The translations under genes and the position numbers were made by a program. A stretch of 64,000 nt of DNA from Pseudorhodoferax soli (GTDB lineage Bacteria; Pseudomonadota; Gammaproteobacteria; Burkholderiales; Burkholderiaceae_C): the NCBI RefSeq assembly GCF_003337555.1, contig NZ_QPJK01000002.1, positions 124,001 to 188,000 on the forward strand, in the 5' to 3' direction. Positions 1,229-60,532 of the stretch are shown here, piece after piece. The number at the start of each line of letters is the position of its first letter. Within the stretch, counting starts at the first letter, position 1. The notes beneath the pieces were generated by a model. The model saw only the letters and a list, made by a program, of their open reading frames with translations, ran no database searches and was not told the origin of the DNA.

Positions 1229-2971
1229 TCAGACCTCGACCGAGCCGACGCGGCGAACGCGCAAAGCGGCAGTCTTGCCGGCCGCGACTTCGATGCTGAT
1301 ATAGACCGTCATGTTCGCGGCCTCGGTCGCATCCACTGTCATCGCAGGGATGCGCAGGAACCGGCGACGCGTGCCGGCCGTGTACAGCTTGGTGGCATCG
1401 TTCTCCTGCAGGTGGTTGCGGCCAGGCTGCGTGCCGGCCCAGGACTTCGTGCGCAGATGGAAGGACAGCACCGATGCGTCGTCCGGCACCTCCACCTCGA
1501 TGATGGCGCACACCGCGAATGAACCAGCGCCGCCAGCGATCTGTCGCTGGAACTCGAAATACTGCGTCGCCGACCCGGCGGTGCACACGACTTGCTGCCA
1601 GTCGGTCGGGTCGCTGTCGGTAGATGCGACTTTGGAGCAGACCGCCGTCGAGCCCGTCCCGCCGTTTGACGCAAGCCATCCATCCGCAACCACCCCGGAC
1701 GCGCCGCCCGCGACCGATCCCGCGGTGCCAGCCATGACGCCATTCACGATGCGCGGGCTGGCCGCGCCCACCGGCGCCCATGAAGCCGGCGACACCGGGA
1801 CTAGCGCTGGGCGCATCACGTCATACAGCCGCAGCCCCATCCGCTCGGCGCCGTTGGGTGCTGGGTGCACACCGTCATAGAGGATCGACACCGGGATCGT
1901 GCCGCTCGCCTGCTGCGGCACGTCGTCCCATTCGACCAGCGTCACCAGCCCCTGGTCGCGCGCGTCGCGCAACAGCTTGTTGACCGCCAGGCGCAGTGCG
2001 ATTTTCGGCGCCGTGACCGCACTGGTATTCGGCATCAGAAGCCCGACAATGGCCGCGCGGCCCGTCGCCTTGATCTTGCCGACGCCAGACATGATCTGGT
2101 CAAACAGCTGCTGTGCGGTCAGCGCTCCGGCCACCAGGTCGTTTGTGCCGGTGTACAGCACGATGGTGCGTTCAGTGGTCAGCGTGGGCAGCCACGCATC
2201 CATCGCTGCGACGATGTTGGCCGTGATGTCCCCGGACATACCGAGCACCTTGCCCGGAAGAATGGCGCCCCCAGCAACGGCGATCAGGTGCGACCCATAG
2301 CCGCGAATGTCGCGAGCGACAAGCGGCGGCGTGTTTACTTCCGTGAATGACGTCAGAGAGTCGCCAACGAATCCCACGACCATGGGCGCCCCAAAAGCGT
2401 CGGCCTTGCCGTCCGCCAACGTCTTGAGCGTCTTGCCCTGCTCTGCCGACAACGCAGCCGTGGAGCCGCCCGTGGTTAGGTCATCGACGATGGGAGTGGC
2501 CGCCCCGCCGCCCAGGGAAGCGACCTGGCCCCAAGCGCCGCCCGTCTTGAGATAGACGACGCCGGCGGTCTCGTCGAGGCACAGATCGCCGTTGTCGCCC
2601 ATACCGGACGCGGGAGCGCCGGTGCTGGCGTGCACGCGGTTGTCGTCGCTCGCCAGCGTGAACTTCTTGAACGCGATCACCGCGGTGCGGCCGTGGCTGG
2701 CGGCAGCGTTGGCTGCAGCCGATCCTGCGGTGGTGGAGAGCGTCCACAGCCGCTTGACCGCAGCGGGCTCGGCCAGCACCTGCAGGTCGATGCCGTCGTA
2801 CCAGACCGGCAGGCCCATTGCGATGCAGGCGCGCTCGTCGGCAAGGCCTTGCAGGAAGGCCGCGCGGTCTGCGTAGACCTTTTTTGTGCCAGGCACGCTG
2901 TCGCCCTGGGCCCGATCCAACGCGGAGATGTACCGCTGCGTCGATCCGGTGGGAGTGGTGAATTTAGGCAT
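1229..2971 (-). CDS. Phage tail protein with SGNH/GDSL hydrolase domain
   Basis: A 580-aa protein. Residues 1-155 are an N-terminal domain shared with the 693-aa protein at 6155-8236. Residues about 198-390 form an SGNH esterase fold: block I FVGDSL (Ser205), GTND block III (Asn277) and DGVH block V (Asp366, His369), so the complete catalytic set is present. The C-terminal 190 residues are Gly/Ala-rich and probably beta-structured. Such domains deacetylate or de-esterify surface glycans, so a role in receptor processing on the host envelope is inferred. The track-like upstream start is a TTG; the ATG at 2971 matches the paralogue. The gene sits between the tail chaperones and the tape measure, an unusual place for a receptor-acting enzyme. 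Confidence 0.85.
   Translation of the reverse strand: MPKFTTPTGSTQRYISALDRAQGDSVPGTKKVYADRAAFLQGLADERACIAMGLPVWYDGIDLQVLAEPAAVKRLWTLSTTAGSAAANAAASHGRTAVIAFKKFTLASDDNRVHASTGAPASGMGDNGDLCLDETAGVVYLKTGGAWGQVASLGGGAATPIVDDLTTGGSTAALSAEQGKTLKTLADGKADAFGAPMVVGFVGDSLTSFTEVNTPPLVARDIRGYGSHLIAVAGGAILPGKVLGMSGDITANIVAAMDAWLPTLTTERTIVLYTGTNDLVAGALTAQQLFDQIMSGVGKIKATGRAAIVGLLMPNTSAVTAPKIALRLAVNKLLRDARDQGLVTLVEWDDVPQQASGTIPVSILYDGVHPAPNGAERMGLRLYDVMRPALVPVSPASWAPVGAASPRIVNGVMAGTAGSVAGGASGVVADGWLASNGGTGSTAVCSKVASTDSDPTDWQQVVCTAGSATQYFEFQRQIAGGAGSFAVCAIIEVEVPDDASVLSFHLRTKSWAGTQPGRNHLQENDATKLYTAGTRRRFLRIPAMTVDATEAANMTVYISIEVAAGKTAALRVRRVGSVEV
2500..2971 (-). repeat. Direct repeat copy A (shared N-terminal domain coding region)
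   Basis: This stretch and 7765-8236 encode the same roughly 155-residue N-terminal domain in the same orientation. Nucleotide similarity is high throughout and near-identical in the middle. Both begin MPKFTTP and share YISALDR, PGTKKVYADRAAFLQG, GLPVWYDGIDLQVLAEP and AVIAFKKFTLASDDNRV. The downstream domains are unrelated. Confidence 0.85.
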
Positions 2972-2979
2972 CTTGCTTT

Positions 2980-3330
2980 TCAATTTGGTTGGTGCCGGGT
3001 GCGCACATCGACGGGTGCTCCGAACATGCGCGCGATCATTTCCAGGGATGCGGGTGACGCTTCGGCCGGCTTCTCTTCAGGCGGCGCGTCGTGGTAGCGC
3101 AGGAACTTGTCCAGCGTCTCCTTGCCGCCGTTGCTGGCATGGCGCTGCCAGTCCGATCGCCCGAACAGGAACTCAAGCCGGTGCCCCACGTTCAAGGTGC
3201 CGAAGCGGCTGCGGTACTCGGCCCACACCATCACTTCTTCAGCGCTCAGGCGCTCGCGGGCTTCTGCGAGGGTTCGGCCGCCGATTCCGTTGAGGACGAG
3301 CTCGCAGAGGAGCTCGTCGGCGGCCGTGAG
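2980..3330 (-). CDS. Tail assembly chaperone, minus-1 frameshift extension (lambda T-like, DUF4035-like)
   Basis: This frame has no good start of its own at the junction and is expected to be read as the extension of the gene at 3246-3662 after a minus-1 slip. The extension encodes 116 residues beginning LTAADELLCELVLNGIGG and continuing into VMVWAEYRSRFGTLNVGHRL, which resembles the phage tail assembly protein T family. The fusion would be 227 aa. In lambda the equivalent gpGT binds the tape measure and tail tube protein, and a low fixed frameshift ratio is needed for tail assembly. An internal ATG-ATG at 3234 could allow separate synthesis, but its context is poor. Confidence 0.82.
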   Translation of the reverse strand, partial: LTAADELLCELVLNGIGGRTLAEARERLSAEEVMVWAEYRSRFGTLNVGHRLEFLFGRSDWQRHASNGGKETLDKFLRYHDAPPEEKPAEASPASLEMIARMFGAPVDVRTRHQPN

Positions 3331-3662
3331 TTTTTTGCGTCACCACCCATGGCCTGGTTGATGGCCACCAGCAGCTTGAAGCCCAGTTGCGAGTTCAGCG
3401 CGCGGGCGTTCTCGGCGCCGAGCGGCACCAGCTTGCCACCCTCCTCGACCAAGACCATCTGGCCGATGGCCGCCGCCCGCTTATCTGGCGAGTCGTCCAG
3501 CTGCAGATCCATGGCCATGCCGAAGGCCATGGGCTTGACGAAGACATCGATCGCGTAGTCCTCGCCGTCGTCGCCCTTCCAGTCGATGGTCTGCAAGACC
3601 GGTTCGAGGTCGCGGATCGCCCCGGCCGACTTCATGCCGGCCAGGCCTTTGAGTTTTTTCAT
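3246..3662 (-). CDS. Tail assembly chaperone, zero-frame product (lambda G-like)
   Basis: A 138-aa protein starting at ATG 3662, with AAAGGA close upstream. Residues 1-100 form a compact acidic domain (KGLAGMKSAGAIRD, DWKGDDGEDYAIDVFVKP, ALNSQLGFKLLVAINQAMGG) of the phage tail assembly chaperone type. After codon 111 the zero frame becomes low-complexity Ser/Thr and stops, as expected when the biologically used continuation is in another frame. It lies downstream of the large FAD-like gene and upstream of the SGNH and tape measure genes. Confidence 0.85.
   Translation of the reverse strand: MKKLKGLAGMKSAGAIRDLEPVLQTIDWKGDDGEDYAIDVFVKPMAFGMAMDLQLDDSPDKRAAAIGQMVLVEEGGKLVPLGAENARALNSQLGFKLLVAINQAMGGDAKNSRPPTSSSASSSSTESAAEPSQKPASA
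3330..3336 (-). promoter_or_regulatory. Programmed minus-1 ribosomal frameshift slippery heptamer A AAA AAC
   Basis: On the minus strand the heptamer AAAAAAC is phased as A AAA AAC in the frame of the chaperone gene (GCA AAA AAC). This is the efficient X XXY YYZ arrangement. Slipping back one base leads directly into the open frame 3330-2980. The zero frame stops at 3246, 84 bases further on. Confidence 0.85.
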
Positions 3663-3678
3663 GGGGTCCTTTGAATGG

Positions 3679-6150
3679 TCAGTTGACCTGCTTGAGGTTC
3701 GGCGGCGTCGCGTCCTGCACGGCCAGCAATGCGGTACGAAGCGCTGCGTAGTCCACGCTCTGCAGCGCCGCCTCGCCAGAGGTGCGGGCCAGCCGTGAAG
3801 CCACCGCCATGGCCTGGCCAATCATCACGGAATGCAGCTCCATGCGGGTCGAGCCGAAGGCCGCGTGGGTTGCAGAGACGCAGAAGCTGGCCGACACGTT
3901 GGCCGCGTCTGCAGCCTTTGGCACCGCAGCCTCATAGGGGAAGGGGTACGCCTGGTCCGTGCCGCCCGTGGCCGTGCCGAAGCCGCCCTCCGTGCTGATG
4001 CCGTGCGGCGTCTGGCTGGTGTCCACCACCCGGCGCACCGCGTGCGAGTCGAGCGGGTAGCTGAAGACGCCGATGGTCTTGAGCGAGCGCGGCGCCGTGC
4101 CGTCGGTCATGGCCGTGTCGTTGGCGTCGAACACGAAGTCGCCGACCATGCGGCGCATCTCACGCACGTACAGTTGGCTGGGCCAGTGCAGTTGGTCGTT
4201 CGGGTGCGGGTCCAGGTAGTGGTACATGTCCCAGCCGTGCGTGCGCATTCGGCTGGAGAACGCGGTTGGGATGCGGCTGTCGCCGCTGTAGCCCAGCCAG
4301 TACAGGAACCCGCGCAGGTAGTCCTCGTGCGCTTTCCAGGATGCCTCGCGCCCGGCCAGGGTCGTGGCGTAGACGTACGCGTTCGCCTTCGCGCCGCCCA
4401 CCCAATCGGTCGTCCCGACGCCCTGGTTGTTCAGGTCGAAGATGTTGGCCGGCTGGCCGCTGGAGCTGCCCAGGTTGAACTCAAGGATCACGTCGTTGAA
4501 CGTGGTGGGCTGGCCGGAGGCGAGCCATCGCGCATGGATCTCGTACTGAGACGCGTCGTAGTTCGCCGGAGGCGTTGTTGTCAGCGGCAAGCGGCGCGTG
4601 TTGGTGATCGTCGTGGTGAGACGAAAGTTGTAGCTCTGGATGTCCTCGTCCGCCTGCCCCAGAGTTTTGAGATTGGCCGGGTAGATGCCGGGCAGCAGAC
4701 CGGAGCCGGGCACGTCAGGGGTGACGTAGGGACTGGCGCTCCACTTGCCATTGCCTTGCGCGCCACGGTAGCCGCTCAAGGCTTCCAGGCCCGTGCCTGC
4801 GGCTTCGCGCCCCGTGACGGTCGAGACGCCGGCCACCGCCAGCAGATCGCCCTCGTAGCCACCGTCGTGGAAGTACTTGCCCACGAAGGTGCGCCCGTCG
4901 CGCGTGGTGATGCTGGTGACCTTGTCGCCGGACTTGGTGGCCGACACCACGCCGCCGGAGAGATAGATCGGGATCGTGAGGCCACCGTCCCGGGCACCAT
5001 CCAGCATCATGCGCAGCATGCGGGTGTAGTCCACGGGGCGGAAGTCGCTGGCGTTGTTGGGCCGGCCGAAGAGCTCGCGCACCTTCGTCGTCATCGTCTT
5101 GGCCAGGCCGCCCAGCTGCGAGAAGGCAATGTAGTCGGTCCGGCCCAGGCCGTGCGCGGACATGCCGCCCGGCTGGGTCTCCCGCCACCCGCCCACCAGC
5201 ACCACCGATTCGCCGTCACGGGCGCACTGGATGGCGTAGGCCAGCGCACCAGGCGCCAGGCTGTAGACGATGTGATCTGCAGTGACCACGGCGGGCGCGA
5301 AGCCCGGCTCGTGGACCTCGATGTCGCCGTCGCGGATCTTGTCGCAGCAATCCCAGACCGCGGCATACAGGATCTGCATCTGCTGGTCGGTCATGCCCTC
5401 ACCCACGAAGGCGGCGGTGATCCGCTGGGCTGATGGGGTGGTGCGGCCGTTGATCTTGCCGATGGTGATCGGCGCGGAGATGCTTCCGCCCGGGACCGAC
5501 GTGCTGGCCAGCGTGTCCGTCTTGCGGCTCATGTGCCAGCCCTGCGCCTCGGCGGCGCTCAGCCGGTTGACCGCATGCATGCCGCCGCCGTCGCTGACCA
5601 GGCCGGCCGTGACTGCGGACATCGCGCCGAAAGAAGGCGTCTTGTCGGCCGCGGACAGCAGCTGCAGCCCTGCATTGGCCGAGCCATCGCTGGTGCCCAT
5701 GTTGAACGAGGCAGCATCCACCTCGAACGTGGCCGACGTGTAGCAGCCCATGGAGACGTTGTCCTGCGACAGCGTGCCGAGCGTGATGCCGGTGTTCAGG
5801 AAGGCGCTGATGGCCGGGAACGTCATGCCGCGCTGCAGCACGAACGTGGGCGATCCAGCGACCGTCAGATCGTTGGTGCCCGGATTGCGGAAGTTGACCA
5901 GGGCTTGGGCTTGGCTGTCGGCCGACAGCAGCCACAGGCCGCGCAGCTTGGACCAGGCGCCGCACGCCTTGAGACGCTGCACCATGCGGTTGAGCGTGAT
6001 CTTGCGGCGCGCGTTGGGGGTCGCGCCGGCGGCGTCCATGGCAGCGAACACCGCAGACGACTCGGCCTCGTACGCGAAGGCGGGCAAGGCACCGCCGCTG
6101 ACGACGGCACGGGCCGAGGCCTGGAGCGCGGCTTTGATGGCAGGACGCAT
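3679..6150 (-). CDS. Phage tail protein: lectin-like N-terminus fused to FAD-dependent oxidoreductase-like domain
   Basis: An 823-aa protein starting at ATG 6150, five bases after the preceding stop. Residues about 20-265 look like a phage concanavalin/LamG-type domain (SKLRGLWLLSADSQAQALVNF, TFPAISAFLNTGITLG). From about 287 to 800 the text follows the FAD_oxidored family: a degenerate nucleotide-binding segment (VYSLAPGALAYAIQCARDGE), GGMSAHGLG, the family box FHDGGYEGDLLAVAGV followed by TGREA, YVREMRRMVGDFV, and the C-terminal FCVSATHAAFGSTRMELH with MIGQAMAVASRLA. The first glycine-rich motif lacks the GxGxxG spacing, so FAD binding may be weakened or lost. The gene lies inside the tail operon, so a virion-associated or receptor-related role is inferred; the reaction is unknown. 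Confidence 0.75.
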   Translation of the reverse strand: MRPAIKAALQASARAVVSGGALPAFAYEAESSAVFAAMDAAGATPNARRKITLNRMVQRLKACGAWSKLRGLWLLSADSQAQALVNFRNPGTNDLTVAGSPTFVLQRGMTFPAISAFLNTGITLGTLSQDNVSMGCYTSATFEVDAASFNMGTSDGSANAGLQLLSAADKTPSFGAMSAVTAGLVSDGGGMHAVNRLSAAEAQGWHMSRKTDTLASTSVPGGSISAPITIGKINGRTTPSAQRITAAFVGEGMTDQQMQILYAAVWDCCDKIRDGDIEVHEPGFAPAVVTADHIVYSLAPGALAYAIQCARDGESVVLVGGWRETQPGGMSAHGLGRTDYIAFSQLGGLAKTMTTKVRELFGRPNNASDFRPVDYTRMLRMMLDGARDGGLTIPIYLSGGVVSATKSGDKVTSITTRDGRTFVGKYFHDGGYEGDLLAVAGVSTVTGREAAGTGLEALSGYRGAQGNGKWSASPYVTPDVPGSGLLPGIYPANLKTLGQADEDIQSYNFRLTTTITNTRRLPLTTTPPANYDASQYEIHARWLASGQPTTFNDVILEFNLGSSSGQPANIFDLNNQGVGTTDWVGGAKANAYVYATTLAGREASWKAHEDYLRGFLYWLGYSGDSRIPTAFSSRMRTHGWDMYHYLDPHPNDQLHWPSQLYVREMRRMVGDFVFDANDTAMTDGTAPRSLKTIGVFSYPLDSHAVRRVVDTSQTPHGISTEGGFGTATGGTDQAYPFPYEAAVPKAADAANVSASFCVSATHAAFGSTRMELHSVMIGQAMAVASRLARTSGEAALQSVDYAALRTALLAVQDATPPNLKQVN

Positions 6151-6154
6151 CGGA

Positions 6155-8236
6155 TCAGCCCGGCAGGTAGGTGAAGAACTCGGCCGAGTCAACCTGCGGG
6201 CCGGTGCTGTTGCTCCAGACTGTGGCCGTGTGCGTGAAGCGCAGGCCGCACTCCGTTCCAAGCTGGGTCATCTCGGAATCGGGCTTCGTGGTGCTGAAGA
6301 TCTCCACGCCGTTGACGCTCACGGTCTGCTTGTTTGGCTCGACCTTGAAGACGACTTCGCAATCCGTTCCCTCGGCGGGGATGTTCGTTGCCACGGCAGT
6401 CGCCAGAGCAGTGCTGGTGCCACTGCCATCGCGGTAGGACAGCGACCAACCTGCGGTGCTGTAGCCAAGCACAATGCCCTTGTCGGCAGACGCTGCCCCG
6501 CTCATATCGCCGCGCAGGTAGATGGCGAACGAGATACCCGTGGTCGGCGTGAATTGATGGAACTTGACCTTAGCCATCACGCCACCCGTTCCGGGCATGG
6601 TGATGCTGGTGCAGGTGTAGAAGAGGGTGATAGTGTTGCCCTGCGGCGATCCGCGCAGGCGCACCGGGTTGGGCGACGTGCCAGAAGCTGCCGCGCTGTA
6701 GCCGCTGACGCCTGCACCGCTGGACGTGGGCCGCTTGACCCAGTTGGCACCGGCGCTGTTGATCACGTCCTGCAGCAGCGTACCGGATGTGGCGGTGTTG
6801 AAGTTGGAACCCGCCACCAAGGCGTTCAGCCGCAGTTCGCCGAGCTCGACGGTGTAGTAGTTCTTGCCGGCGATGCGCTGGAAGGTGACGATGTATTCCT
6901 GGGCATTGGTGTTGCCCATGGCGACGCCGCCGCGCTTGATGAAGGGGCCGAGGCTCGGCGTGTTGGTTCCGTCGCCGATCAGCACGGTGGTCCAGCGCGC
7001 GCCGTCGGCCAGGCCGGCAGAGTTCAGGCTGAACGACATCGGGCCCGCGACCTGTTGCGGCGCCGAGACCATGCGGTTGCCGTCCAGTTGGATCGACGTG
7101 CCGAAGGCCACGGCCGCAGGCAGGCCGGATGGCAGCGTTGCGTAGGACTGCCAGTTGGCCAAGGTCGTGGCCGGCAGCGCCTTGAGTTCGTAGCCGATGC
7201 CGCCCAGGTCGGTGCGGCTCATCCAGTCGCCGACGGCAGCACCGGACAGGGAGAGCATGGCCGCTTCGTTGGCAGCGGCGCCGCGCCAGACGCGCGTTGC
7301 GCCGCCTGTACCGTAGGCCTTCCAGTTCGCCAGGGCGGTGGCCGGGCTCGCTGTCAGCTCGTAGGCTGCAGCGTTGAGGTCGGTGCGGGTGACCCAGTCG
7401 CCTACCGCCGCAGTGGCCGCCAGCATCGCGGCCTGATCAGCGACCGCCCCACGGAAGGTGCGTGTGCTGCCGCTACTGGCCGGCGCGCCGTTCAGAAGGC
7501 GTAGACCGTTGAGCGTGCTCGTGCCGACGATGGCGCCGCTGGAACCCGCTGCAGCATTGGCGTTGCCTGCCGTATTCGCAAGGTCCACGCCGCTTCCGGC
7601 TGCAAAGGACACCGCCCCCAAGCCGGTGACGACATAGGACATCGCAAAGGACCGCGGAAGACCGGGTGGGACAGTGACCGCGCACGCCACCTTGAAGTCG
7701 AGCGTCTTGTCCAAAGCAAGCAAGGTGTACGTGGACGCCTCGATCGCCTTGGGCTCCGGGTCGGACGCCGTTCCTCCCAGCGTAGTCTCCTGCGCCCAGG
7801 CGCCCAATGCCTTGCGGTAAACGATACCGGCCGTCTCGTCGAGTGCCAGGTCCCCGTTATCCCCTACCCCAACGCCAGGAGCACCGATCGTGGCCAGCAC
7901 GCGGTTGTCGTCGCTCGCCAGCGTGAACTTCTTGAAGGCGATCACCGCCGTGCGGCCGTGGCTGGCAGTGGCGTTGGCAGCTGCCGAGCCTGCAGTGGTG
8001 GAAAGCGTCCAAAGCCGCTTGACCGCTGCGGGTTCCGCGAGCACCTGCAGGTCAATGCCGTCGTACCAGACAGGCAGACCCATGGCGATGCAGGCGCGCT
8101 CGTCTGCGACGCCCTGCAAGAAGGCCGCCCGGTCGGCATAGACTTTCTTTGTGCCGGGAATGCTGTCGGGCGCGTTGCGATCCAGCGCAGAGATGTAGCG
8201 CTGCGTCGTGCCTGCGGGAGTAGTGAACTTGGGCAT
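6155..8236 (-). CDS. Phage tail fibre-like protein with duplicated internal repeat
   Basis: A 693-aa protein from ATG 8236, just downstream of the tail tube gene. Residues 1-155 are the N-terminal domain shared with the SGNH protein. Residues 258-308 and 315-366 are two copies of a repeat of about 50 aa with the pattern RGA-x-A-x-(D/E)-AAML, VGDW(V/M)(T/S)RTDL, YEL and ALANW. The C-terminal 320 residues are Gly/Thr/Ser-rich and probably beta-sandwich, ending TVWSNSTGPQVDSAEFFTYLPG-like text. No catalytic motif is visible. The modular build and shared front domain suggest a receptor-binding or tail-decorating protein. Confidence 0.7.
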   Translation of the reverse strand: MPKFTTPAGTTQRYISALDRNAPDSIPGTKKVYADRAAFLQGVADERACIAMGLPVWYDGIDLQVLAEPAAVKRLWTLSTTAGSAAANATASHGRTAVIAFKKFTLASDDNRVLATIGAPGVGVGDNGDLALDETAGIVYRKALGAWAQETTLGGTASDPEPKAIEASTYTLLALDKTLDFKVACAVTVPPGLPRSFAMSYVVTGLGAVSFAAGSGVDLANTAGNANAAAGSSGAIVGTSTLNGLRLLNGAPASSGSTRTFRGAVADQAAMLAATAAVGDWVTRTDLNAAAYELTASPATALANWKAYGTGGATRVWRGAAANEAAMLSLSGAAVGDWMSRTDLGGIGYELKALPATTLANWQSYATLPSGLPAAVAFGTSIQLDGNRMVSAPQQVAGPMSFSLNSAGLADGARWTTVLIGDGTNTPSLGPFIKRGGVAMGNTNAQEYIVTFQRIAGKNYYTVELGELRLNALVAGSNFNTATSGTLLQDVINSAGANWVKRPTSSGAGVSGYSAAASGTSPNPVRLRGSPQGNTITLFYTCTSITMPGTGGVMAKVKFHQFTPTTGISFAIYLRGDMSGAASADKGIVLGYSTAGWSLSYRDGSGTSTALATAVATNIPAEGTDCEVVFKVEPNKQTVSVNGVEIFSTTKPDSEMTQLGTECGLRFTHTATVWSNSTGPQVDSAEFFTYLPG
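7765..8236 (-). repeat. Direct repeat copy B (shared N-terminal domain coding region)
   Basis: Partner of the copy at 2500-2971, same orientation. The pair brackets the FAD-like gene, the chaperone genes and most of the 693-aa gene; recombination between the copies would remove about 5.3 kb. Confidence 0.85.
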
Positions 8237-8248
8237 GGCAGGCTCCGA

Positions 8249-9121
8249 TCAGCTGGTGGTCCAGTCGCCAGCGGTGGGCTGCGAGTGGGGGTAGTCCATG
8301 CGGAACAGGCGCCACACGAAGCCGTCTCCATCGGCGAATGTCACGGCCGACTGCGCCGGCGATGGGCCACCGTCGGTGTTGGGGCCCGCCTCGCCTGCGC
8401 CGTTCCAGTCGCCCGGGGTGTTGGTGTCGTCGCGGAAGGTCACACCGACGGCAGAGACATCGCCAGGCATGGCCACCCAGCCGTAGTTGCCGGTCGTGGT
8501 CTGCAGGTTCTCGATCGTGCCGATCTTGCTGCCAGGCGAGCCGAACAGCGTTGCGGCATCCAGGAACGCTTGCGTGCCGCTGGTGTGCGCGTTGGCCGGG
8601 CCGACGAACCAGCGCGGCCGCGGGCCGGTGCCGGATGCCTTGGGGATCAGCACCTGCGTGCCGCTGATCTGGATGCCGACGGCGGACTTCACCACGTCGT
8701 TCAAGTTGAAGCTGAACGGGAACGAGCTCATGTAGCCCTCGAACAGCAGCCAGGACCGGCCGTCCGGCAGATCGAAGTCGTCGTTCACGACCGTGGGCGG
8801 CAGGTCGATGGTGCCGTCCGGCTCCATCGGGCCGTCACCCCAGCCGATCGCCCACTTGAGCGTCAGGCCCAGCTGCTTGAGCTGATACAGCTTCAGGTGA
8901 GAGGCGTCGGACGGGTCGATGTTGATGCCGAAGGAAGCCGCACCGGGCGAGCCCATGCCGGACACGTACTTGCGGTCCTTGCCCGAGTTCAGGCAGGTCG
9001 TCTCGATCTGCTCGACCGACGAATCGATGCCGTCGATGGTGGTGACGCAGCCGACGACGATGATGCTGTTGTCGCGGGGGTCGAGACCGAACAAGTCGGT
9101 GCCTTGGGTCTTTACGGTCAT
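8249..9121 (-). CDS. Major tail tube protein
   Basis: A 290-aa protein in the position of lambda gpV / HK97 gp10-adjacent tail tube genes, after the tail completion genes and before the chaperones. The first 160 residues match the tail tube fold in composition (VKTQGTDLFGLDP, GCVTTIDGIDSS, SFGINIDPSDASHLKLYQL, SFPFSFNLNDVVKSAVGIQISG). The last 110 residues are a Gly/Asp/Pro-rich extension that could be an external decoration domain like the lambda gpV C-terminus. Two intrinsic terminators lie immediately upstream in the direction of transcription. Confidence 0.85.
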   Translation of the reverse strand: MTVKTQGTDLFGLDPRDNSIIVVGCVTTIDGIDSSVEQIETTCLNSGKDRKYVSGMGSPGAASFGINIDPSDASHLKLYQLKQLGLTLKWAIGWGDGPMEPDGTIDLPPTVVNDDFDLPDGRSWLLFEGYMSSFPFSFNLNDVVKSAVGIQISGTQVLIPKASGTGPRPRWFVGPANAHTSGTQAFLDAATLFGSPGSKIGTIENLQTTTGNYGWVAMPGDVSAVGVTFRDDTNTPGDWNGAGEAGPNTDGGPSPAQSAVTFADGDGFVWRLFRMDYPHSQPTAGDWTTS

Positions 9122-10844: not shown

Positions 10845-11747
10845 TCAGCGCCCCAGCTTGATGGGCGCGGGCGGCCCGGCCTGAATGGTTTTCACGATGG
10901 ACTCGCCATCGCGGCCCTTGCGCGCTGCGATGATCCAGTCTTCGCTCTGCGCCTGGGGCTTGCCCGAGGTGTCTTTCGTGGCGATCCACAGCGAACCGTC
11001 GTGCACCCAGGCCTCGCAGGCCTTGGCCTTCGTGCCTTCGCGCCAGTAACTCCCCGGACGCAGCCCGCCGGCCGGGAAGCGCACTTCCTTCGTGCGCCCA
11101 GCACAGGCGGCCTTGATGGCCACCTCGTGGGTCTCCTCGAGGTAGGTCAGATCGAAGGCGTCCAGGCTCATGCCGTCGGCGCCATCGGTCCCATCCTTGC
11201 CGTCCTTTCCGACCACCGGGCCCAGCGACTTCACGGTGCCGTTGGTCAGCGTCACCAGCAGCGCGCCGTCGCGGTCGATCATGGCACCGGCCAGGCCGAT
11301 GCCGTCTGCGCCCTTCTCACCCGGGTCGCCCTTCAGTCCGGGTTCGCCATCCTTCGGCACGGGCAGCGCCTTGATGGCAGCGGCGACGGCGTCCGCAGAC
11401 TCGTCCCGGACGCTCTTCACTGCGGAGGCGATCAACGGCTGTAGGTCTTCAATGGTGACGCTGCGACCGTCCCTACCGTTCTCACCGTCATTTCCATCTT
11501 TCGGCACAGGCAGCGCCTTGACCGCGGCCGTCACCATGGTCTGCACGACCTCCATGTCGCAGTCCTTGCCGTCCGCAGGGACGGGGACGGCGGCCACGGC
11601 CTTGGCCACTTCCTGAGCAACCAAGGCGGTGAAGTCGGGGCGCTGGGCCAGCTGCGTCTTCAGCTCGGAGATCTCGGACAGCAACGGCGCGACGGCCTTG
11701 CGGATCTCCTCGCCCATCGCCTGGCCGAACAGTTCGGGGTCAAACAT
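10845..11747 (-). CDS. Phage collagen-like repeat protein
   Basis: A 300-aa protein. Residues 1-60 are a coiled-coil-like helix (EEIRKAVAPLLSEISELKTQL). There are then several short Gly-X-Y tracts (GNDGENGRDGRS, GEPGLKGDPGEKGADG, GKDGKDGTDGADG) separated by helical AVKALPVPKDG units. The C-terminal 100 residues contain SYWREGTKAKACEAWVHDGSLW, resembling the small carbohydrate-binding modules found on phage head fibres and tail fibres. It lies between the portal and connector genes and overlaps the portal by 8 bases. A trimeric head-fibre or decoration role is inferred. Confidence 0.75.
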   Translation of the reverse strand: MFDPELFGQAMGEEIRKAVAPLLSEISELKTQLAQRPDFTALVAQEVAKAVAAVPVPADGKDCDMEVVQTMVTAAVKALPVPKDGNDGENGRDGRSVTIEDLQPLIASAVKSVRDESADAVAAAIKALPVPKDGEPGLKGDPGEKGADGIGLAGAMIDRDGALLVTLTNGTVKSLGPVVGKDGKDGTDGADGMSLDAFDLTYLEETHEVAIKAACAGRTKEVRFPAGGLRPGSYWREGTKAKACEAWVHDGSLWIATKDTSGKPQAQSEDWIIAARKGRDGESIVKTIQAGPPAPIKLGR

Positions 11748-25174: not shown

Positions 25175-25299
25175 CTTTGCCTTTCAACATGAGCAAGACG
25201 CCCTTCGGGAAAAAGAAGCCAGCGGCAGGCAGGAAAGGCAACTGCTCTTCGGGGCGGGTAGCTATTCCGCGACCTAGCCGTGGCGTCAAACAGTTGGGA

Positions 25300-59064: not shown

Positions 59065-59152
59065 AGCGGGGCAGCCGGGCCGGAGGCTCGGCTACACTAG
59101 CGCCGTACGCAACTGGCGATAGGCAACGGTCAAGCGCAGACCGCATGCTGAC

Positions 59153-59260
59153 GTGGAACAGCCGGACTTTCACAAGCTCCTCGACAACCACTGGGAAGCG
59201 TACCGCAGGATCCTCGTGACCCCCGCGTTCAGCCGTTCGCCTGGGCAGCCCTTGTACTGA
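59153..59260 (+). CDS. Possible 35-aa protein upstream of glyA
   Basis: A GTG frame ending 27 bases before glyA. The text (EQPDFHKLLDNHWEAYRRIL, TPAFSRSPGQPLY) looks like a real peptide, not random GC-rich translation. No clear Shine-Dalgarno sequence. Could be a small protein or a leader peptide for glyA. Confidence 0.35.
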   Translation: MEQPDFHKLLDNHWEAYRRILVTPAFSRSPGQPLY

Positions 59261-59287: not shown

Positions 59288-60532
59288 ATGTACGACCGCA
59301 ACATCCTGATCGAACAAACCGACCCCGAGCTGTACGCCGCCATCCTGGCCGAAAACCGCCGCCAGGAAGACCACATCGAACTGATCGCCAGCGAGAACTA
59401 TGCTTCGCCCGCCGTCATGGCCGCGCAGGGTTCGCAGCTCACCAACAAGTACGCCGAGGGCTATCCCGGCCGCCGTTACTACGGTGGCTGTGAGTACGTG
59501 GACGTGGCCGAACAACTCGCCATTGACCGCGTCAAGCAGTTGTTCGGCGCCGACGCCGCCAACGTGCAGCCGCATTGCGGCGCCTCGGCCAACCAGGCTG
59601 TGTTCCTGGCCTTCCTCAAGCCGGGCGACACCATCATGGGAATGAGCCTGGCCGAAGGCGGCCACCTGACCCACGGCATGGCGCTGAACATGAGCGGCAA
59701 GTGGTTCAACGTGGTGAGCTACGGCCTCAACGCCAAGGAAGAGATCGACTACGACGCGATGGAACGCCGCGCGCACGAGACGAAGCCCAAGCTGATCATC
59801 GCCGGAGCCTCGGCTTACAGCCTGCACATCGATTTCGCGCGCTTCGCCAAGGTGGCGCGCGATGTCGGGGCAATCTTCATGGTCGACATGGCGCACTATG
59901 CCGGCCTGATCGCCGCGGGCGTCTATCCCAACCCGGTTCCGCATGCCGACGTGGTGACCTCGACCACGCACAAGAGCCTGCGCGGCCCGCGCGGCGGCAT
60001 CATCCTGATGAAGTCCGAGCACGAGAAGGCCATCAACAGCGCCGTGTTCCCCGGCCTGCAGGGCGGCCCGCTGATGCACGTGATCGCCGCCAAGGCCATC
60101 GCTTTCAAGGAAGCCCAGGCGCCCGAGTTCAAGGCCTACCAGCAGCGCGTGCTCGACAACGCCCGTGTGGTGGCCGAGACGCTGACGGCGCGCGGCCTGC
60201 GCATCGTCAGTGGCGGCACGCAAAGCCACGTGATGCTGGTCGACCTGCGGGCCAAGGGCATCACCGGCAAGGAAGCCGAGGCCGTGCTCGGTGCCGCACA
60301 CATGACCATCAACAAGAACGCCATCCCGAACGACCCGGAGAAGCCGATGGTGACGAGCGGTGTGCGCGTCGGCACCCCTGCCATGACCACGCGCGGCTTC
60401 GGCACGGACGAGGCCCACGCCACAGCCCACCTGATCGCCGATGTGCTGGACAACCCACGCGACGAAGCCAACCTGGCCCAAGTGCGCACCAAAGTCGCCG
60501 CACTGACGCAGCGCTTCCCGGTGTACGGCTGA
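59288..60532 (+). CDS. glyA: Serine hydroxymethyltransferase
   Basis: A 414-aa PLP enzyme making glycine and methylene-THF from serine. [34 protein letters not shown], the PLP lysine in [16 protein letters not shown], and [15 protein letters not shown]. Full usual length; GAGG upstream of the ATG. Followed by nrdR, a common order. Confidence 0.98.

Follow-up and report, generated by a model that had tools for sequence, protein, structure and literature searches.

What is a redox-enzyme fold doing among the tail genes of a prophage, and is it still an enzyme there? The question is raised by a two-domain gene at 3679..6150 (minus strand) in a 64,000-nucleotide stretch of Pseudorhodoferax soli DNA, hereafter the window, which we followed through its translation, the Pfam family PF12831 and predicted models. 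Stop codons interrupt the plus strand across 3679-6150, whereas the minus strand is open from an ATG at 6150 to a stop at 3679-3681 and encodes the 823-aa protein proposed by the initial annotation. Its G+C at the three codon positions (0.62/0.53/0.89) is similar to that of the five neighbours measured, and the prophage resides in a Burkholderiales genome of 8.16 Mb. Among plasmid-type records, the 16S gene of this genome showed 96.0% identity to Variovorax paradoxus, 94.8% to Comamonas and 93.6% to Mitsuaria.

Directly upstream of this gene, with 4 bases between its stop and the ATG, is gene A (6155..8236, minus strand, 693 aa), which had no match in Pfam, PHROG, NCBIfam or the phage collection at the limits used. 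Also upstream is the major tail tube protein (8249..9121, minus strand; PF16460, phrog_158), with terminase, head protease, capsid, portal, head closure, neck and tail terminator genes farther away. On the downstream side we identified a tail assembly chaperone (3246..3662, minus strand; PF16459 and phrog_1749 in frame 3249-3755, with the start codon read from the frame), and farther downstream gene B, the tape measure and the central tail fibre J. Gene B (1229..2983, minus strand, 584 aa) contains a phage fibre repeat (PF22337) and a GDSL-like domain (PF13472) whose score of 33.2 bits compares with a cut-off of 32.9, and matches the lipase family phrog_6102. This gene order on both sides assigns the 823-aa gene to the virion operon of a prophage of siphovirus type, and its annotated position in a tail operon beside a chaperone was confirmed, with the tail tube upstream and the chaperone downstream.

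Several other features of the window were recorded. The first 160 residues of the products of genes A and B, which lie on either side of the 823-aa gene, are 84% identical while the remainder differs, and the shared stretch may be one anchor-like module used twice. Between the portal and connector genes is a 300-aa gene of collagen-like appearance (10848-11747, minus strand), which partially matches portal and fibre families. Two RNA matches were also obtained, a marginal one to int-alpA RNA at 25202-25284 (minus strand; 36.0 bits against a cut-off of 35.8) and one to the ZMP/ZTP riboswitch at 59099-59253 (46.4 bits), upstream of the open reading frame at 59288-60532.

The rear of the protein (residues 285-823; 3682..5298, minus strand) had been described as following the FAD_oxidored family, and this was clearly upheld by Pfam, with PF12831 matching residues 300-808 over profile positions 9-416 of 416 at 2.1e-52. 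The score of 179.3 bits, where 27 would pass the cut-off, is far beyond chance, and all four members of alignment A1 matched the same family. NCBIfam returned no model for the 823-aa protein. The whole-protein model had a pLDDT of 84.3 and a pTM of 0.91, and a model of the C-terminal domain by itself had values of 92.3 and 0.94, respectively. When the latter was compared with the PDB using Foldseek, nearly all of the 50 matches listed were flavoproteins by title (best E 2.9e-7), and included flavocytochrome c fumarate reductases, flavin halogenases and monooxygenases, and MnmG. TM values were ~0.2-0.3, with ~190 columns and an rmsd of 4-5 in the better rows, which indicates that the common part is the Rossmann core and that the whole fold is not covered. 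The predicted domain therefore resembles the FAD/NAD(P)-binding Rossmann class of flavoproteins, with superposition of the core only, and an unrelated fold was not seen for residues 287-800. No solved structure was close in sequence, the best 60 of 165 matches all being short. From homology, we class the 823-aa protein as a member of PF12831 and not as a working FAD-dependent enzyme.

The front domain (residues ~24-284; 5299..6081, minus strand) had been called lectin-like, and structure comparison gives a hint of such a jelly-roll fold. Comparison with the Foldseek viral library placed rhizobial and uncultured phage proteins at the top (E to 8e-14), one of which bears an SGNH hydrolase domain name, with phage proteins named as ConA-like or LamG lower in the list (probability ~1.00, E ~2e-4 and weaker, low TM). 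However, there was no Pfam match, and the likeness to ConA/LamG domains rests on a model whose confidence is 44-60 in parts of this region. Two PHROGs that matched the front domain are both of unknown function.

We found 15 matching records among 50,697 phage records, three of which contain most of the protein (Rhizobium phages RHph_N3_19, RHph_I72 and RHph_Y55), and scans of viral and genome contigs added twelve further distinct copies (L016-L020, L023-L025, L133, L134, L136 and L137). Contigs L015 and L135 represent the same prophage as the window, L021 and L022 are duplicates of L020, and L123-L132 duplicate contigs already counted (L127 as judged from its length). Hosts can be named for four of the 15 other copies, namely the three Rhizobium phages and L025, in Pararhizobium. 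The front domain is present in all 16 phage copies, having been recognised in 11 of the others by alignment and in four (L133, L134, L136 and L137) by a front-domain HMM, which also matched protein 398 of Sinorhizobium phage phiM12 but neither genes A and B nor any of ten alphaproteobacterial homologues of the rear domain. There is no second copy in the host genome, where the top-scoring FAD_oxidored protein is L007 (381 bits across the full profile; not a row of the trees described below), and none of five congeners carries one. Likewise, among 399 genomes of the family, with at most two candidates scored per genome, 13 others matched only weakly, over no more than 157 residues.

The position of the gene differs between these phages. 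It adjoins terminase, portal or capsid genes in RHph_N3_19, RHph_I72, RHph_Y55, L133 and L137, is ahead of the terminase in L136 and ahead of head and tail genes in L134, and is downstream of a tail fibre gene in L017 and of an endolysin gene in L016, L019, L023, L024 and L025, while the L018 copy is at a contig end. In L020 it is among tail genes, between the tape measure and the hub, so relatives among phage tail genes do exist, but most are outside the tail module. The proposal that a redox fold is used as a tail protein thus stands as far as a late or structural gene region and the existence of phage relatives are concerned, but the tail role itself is read from gene order in this prophage only. 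Two copies are very long. In L136 (1324-8604) a 2427-aa chain joins the front domain to a GH16 domain (PF00722, 2.6e-15) and a C-terminal FAD_oxidored part, with an Ig-like match below the cut-off, and L137 encodes 1226 aa with the FAD_oxidored part at the end of the protein. Neither had PHROG matches, and their description as fibre-like is therefore a reading from length and domains.

Variation in gene position between head, tail and post-lysis sites is typical of cargo, and some other phage genes encode metabolic enzymes. We therefore considered whether the gene could be a moron of the late operon, outside the particle, whose redox role would be inside the cell or linked to lysogeny. This appears improbable, as the lectin-like fusion is found in all 16 copies, the very long versions in L136 and L137 do not suit such a role, and the gene is tightly spaced, at 4 bases, to gene A.

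We assessed the cofactor site using alignment column counts. Alignment A4 comprised 13 of the 16 phage rows, with the three RHph proteins excluded, and 43 bacterial rows. The dinucleotide-binding loop of the window copy reads Y-S-L-A-P-G-A (residues 296-302; 5245..5265, minus strand), and the initial annotation had interpreted it as having lost its GxGxxG spacing. This was not borne out, as the loop of the subfamily is Y-G-x-T-x-x-[GA], with Thr for the second Gly and Ala allowed for the third, and the window copy has the same spacing. Simple decay of the loop was also rejected as an explanation because GxTxx[GA] is a trait of the subfamily, and Ala at position 302 occurs in 7 of the 43 bacterial rows as well. 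What sets the window copy apart is the first loop glycine, which is present in 43/43 bacterial and 12/12 other phage rows, and in the three RHph proteins, but is replaced by Ser in the window copy only. Position 299 is Ala, where the bacterial rows have Thr in 39/43 and Ala in 1/43, so that S-L-A-P-G-A, with Gly to Ser and Thr to Ala exchanges, stands in place of an intact G-x-T-x-x-[GA]. The acidic residue of beta-2 was examined as a diagnostic and rejected, since it is absent from 12/35 rows of other phyla and from 8/8 alphaproteobacterial rows.

Beyond the loop, 58 positions were each invariant in at least 97% of the 43 bacterial rows. The window copy, at 32-39% overall identity to these rows, retains 52 of them and has lost six (G297S, G333H, A375Y, S580T, M775V and A785S), which indicates that it is not simply dead. 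Conserved positions that it keeps include GGM (328-330), D339, Y432-E433-G434-D435, R448, Q505, R510, D572, N574, R663, D701, H703, H762, R769 and E771, and the retained invariants would together form a ligand or cofactor pocket. Position 375 is Ala in 43/43 bacterial rows and 1/12 other phage rows, and is bulky in the window copy and most phage rows, which may reflect a changed cofactor site. The other 12 phage rows retain between 38 and 53 of the 58 invariants, although L018 (46) is cut by the contig end. L020 keeps a GATPGG loop and 53 invariants, L136 keeps 38, and H762 is missing in L133, L134 and L136. These counts suggest that the phage copies form a series, being near-canonical in L018 and L020, intermediate in the window copy and eroded in L133, L134 and L136. 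For five pairs of relatives dN/dS was 0.05-0.11 in both domains, values that are rough because dS exceeded 1 in all five (that of a sixth pair was uncomputable). They suggest constraint on both domains among the relatives; no close relative of the window gene itself was found for pairing.

These data bear on two further explanations. The first is a working flavoenzyme on the virion, which would bind FAD despite its loop and oxidise a sugar or polysaccharide of the host surface, as a redox equivalent of the depolymerases and deacetylases of phage tails. It gains from the 52 of 58 invariants kept, together with conserved positions such as GGM, E433 and H762, from the near-canonical loop and pocket of L020, from the GH16 partner in L136, and from the absence of the beta-2 acid in bacterial kin too, meaning that this residue is not needed in the family. 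Nevertheless, the Ser at an otherwise invariant first loop glycine counts against it, and the loss of H762 in three copies and the erosion of the L136 pocket show that activity is not a requirement for every member, so we regard full catalysis on the particle as possible but rather unlikely. The second is a pure scaffold, in which the enzyme fold is a stable, ligand-free block of a decoration fibre. The cofactor loop is indeed eroded in many phage rows, and passages of PMC9512402 describe Mimivirus GMC oxidoreductases as structural, although with FAD retained. However, many positions of the charged pocket do not vary at all among the 13 phage rows, beyond what a scaffold would need (D339, Q505, R510, R541, D572, N574, Y661, R663, Y698, D701 and H703 are identical in 13/13), and this explanation is very improbable.

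To place the rear domain among its bacterial kin, 80 of 376 confirmed stretches were kept, and of 79 non-phage loci the first tree used 53 and alignment A4 used 43, after removal of joined matches, partial contigs and near-copies. In the first tree a branch at 100/99 split 12 phage from 10 alphaproteobacterial rows, and in the second the split of 16 phage from 8 alphaproteobacterial rows was at 100/94. Phage and alphaproteobacterial rows together were separated from other phyla at 100/100 in both trees, and the window row grouped with L133 and L134 (98/95, second tree). The midpoint root of the first tree fell between the phage-plus-alphaproteobacterial rows and the other phyla, with the window row among the long branches, and that of the second fell inside the phage rows owing to the long branches of L136 and L137. 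The second tree supported a split of phage from all bacterial rows at 90/79 only, and the idea of a capture from bacteria therefore also draws on how the family is spread among them.

An RR-x-[FL] leader was found in 10/10 alphaproteobacterial rows, and in 0/16 phage rows within their first 70 residues. As judged from the motif, this leader is Tat-like and would direct export. Tat cargo usually carries a cofactor. The absence of the leader from all 16 phage rows fits action from the particle better than export, although the N-terminus of L024, whose start codon is uncertain, has RRGV before a hydrophobic stretch and could include a leader. In other phyla, SusC/SusD-type genes immediately precede the FAD_oxidored gene in two loci, L056 (Dyadobacter) and L085 (Chitinophaga), with GH16 plus CBM6 next in L085, and a Golvesin_C domain occurs in L056 and L036. 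This SusC/SusD context was seen in two of five other-phylum loci for which genes were listed, and the one neighbour searched from the other three gave no such sign. The GH16 domain of phage copy L136 points the same way, towards glycans, but for the alphaproteobacterial kin there was no glycan signal in one Methylobacterium locus examined with Pfam or in four gene lists inspected by eye. Separately, a plasmid of Rhizobium sp. AB2/73 encodes a stand-alone FAD_oxidored homologue (L138:9914-11662), flanked by virB1 and a gene for a VirA-like kinase.

Taken together, we favour, at a probability of about 0.47, a virion-associated and host-surface-directed phage protein in which an enzyme-derived pocket engages a surface saccharide at adsorption; its virion location, glycan ligand and mode of action are what we infer from these comparisons. 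The C-terminal domain would descend from bacterial FAD_oxidored enzymes, probably through one capture, and the nearest kin found of the captured enzyme are the alphaproteobacterial proteins with Tat-like leaders. An exported flavoenzyme would thus have been captured and joined to a lectin-like domain, and the resulting cassette moved among phage late genes. The front domain, perhaps with a partner such as gene A, would attach the protein to the particle or to a glycan, leaving the pocket to engage the saccharide during adsorption. As this prophage encodes an ordinary central tail fibre J of its own and most relatives are outside the tail module, the 823-aa protein would be an accessory. In the window copy the charged pocket is kept yet the loop lacks a glycine that is normally invariant, and we lean slightly towards ligand binding by this pocket, with weak, altered or no flavin use, over full redox turnover.

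A broader form of this idea is that a class of phages has carried a once-captured surface-glycan oxidoreductase on the particle, the cofactor site then having decayed to a lectin in several lineages. We hold this as tentative and rather doubtful, but if true a redox step on host polysaccharide would be part of adsorption. Action on host surfaces is known for virion enzymes that are hydrolases, lyases and esterases, and a flavoenzyme-derived domain recruited to this position would add to the chemistry available for phage adsorption or provide an enzyme-to-binder series. Our findings suggest that the fold of a redox enzyme was recruited by some phages for recognising or changing host surfaces, and since near-canonical, intermediate and eroded copies exist in one family, the timing of the passage from enzyme to lectin is testable on isolated Rhizobium phages.

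In the literature searched we found no paper on a FAD_oxidored tail protein, nor any proteomics of the particles. A passage of PMC10783043 reports an FAD-dependent oxidoreductase common to a T4-like cluster, and PMC9512402 and PMC11042495 place Mimivirus GMC oxidoreductases in the genomic fibre and surface fibrils. The latter share with our protein a flavoenzyme fold as a virion component, a likeness in use for which sequences were not compared, but belong to another flavoenzyme family in a giant virus of a eukaryote, with FAD density present (PMC9512402).

Sinorhizobium phage phiM12 398 and phiN3 'YapH' have the front domain in common with the window protein, although at their C-terminal end, and phiM12 398 is without the FAD_oxidored part. 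Its record notes a partial GDSL domain, which we dropped as support since no Pfam family matched at 0.01. Phage tail depolymerases and deacetylases likewise combine binding with an enzyme module acting on surface glycans, but are hydrolases, lyases or esterases, and we know of none with the FAD_oxidored fold. The alphaproteobacterial FAD_oxidored proteins (Agrobacterium, Rhizobium, Allorhizobium, Methylobacterium and Caulobacter) are 35-38% identical over the C-terminal domain, share a VGGWR stretch with the window copy and form the neighbouring group on the tree, but have a Tat-like leader and an intact G-x-T-x-x-[GA] where the window protein has a lectin-like front and an altered loop. The closest parallels are the proteins of RHph_N3_19, RHph_I72 and RHph_Y55, which have the same two domains at 32.6-36.1% identity over 96-98% of the protein, and are annotated in the latter two phages as FAD dependent oxidoreductase; in all three the gene is among terminase, portal and head genes, whereas in the window it lies between the tail tube and the chaperone.
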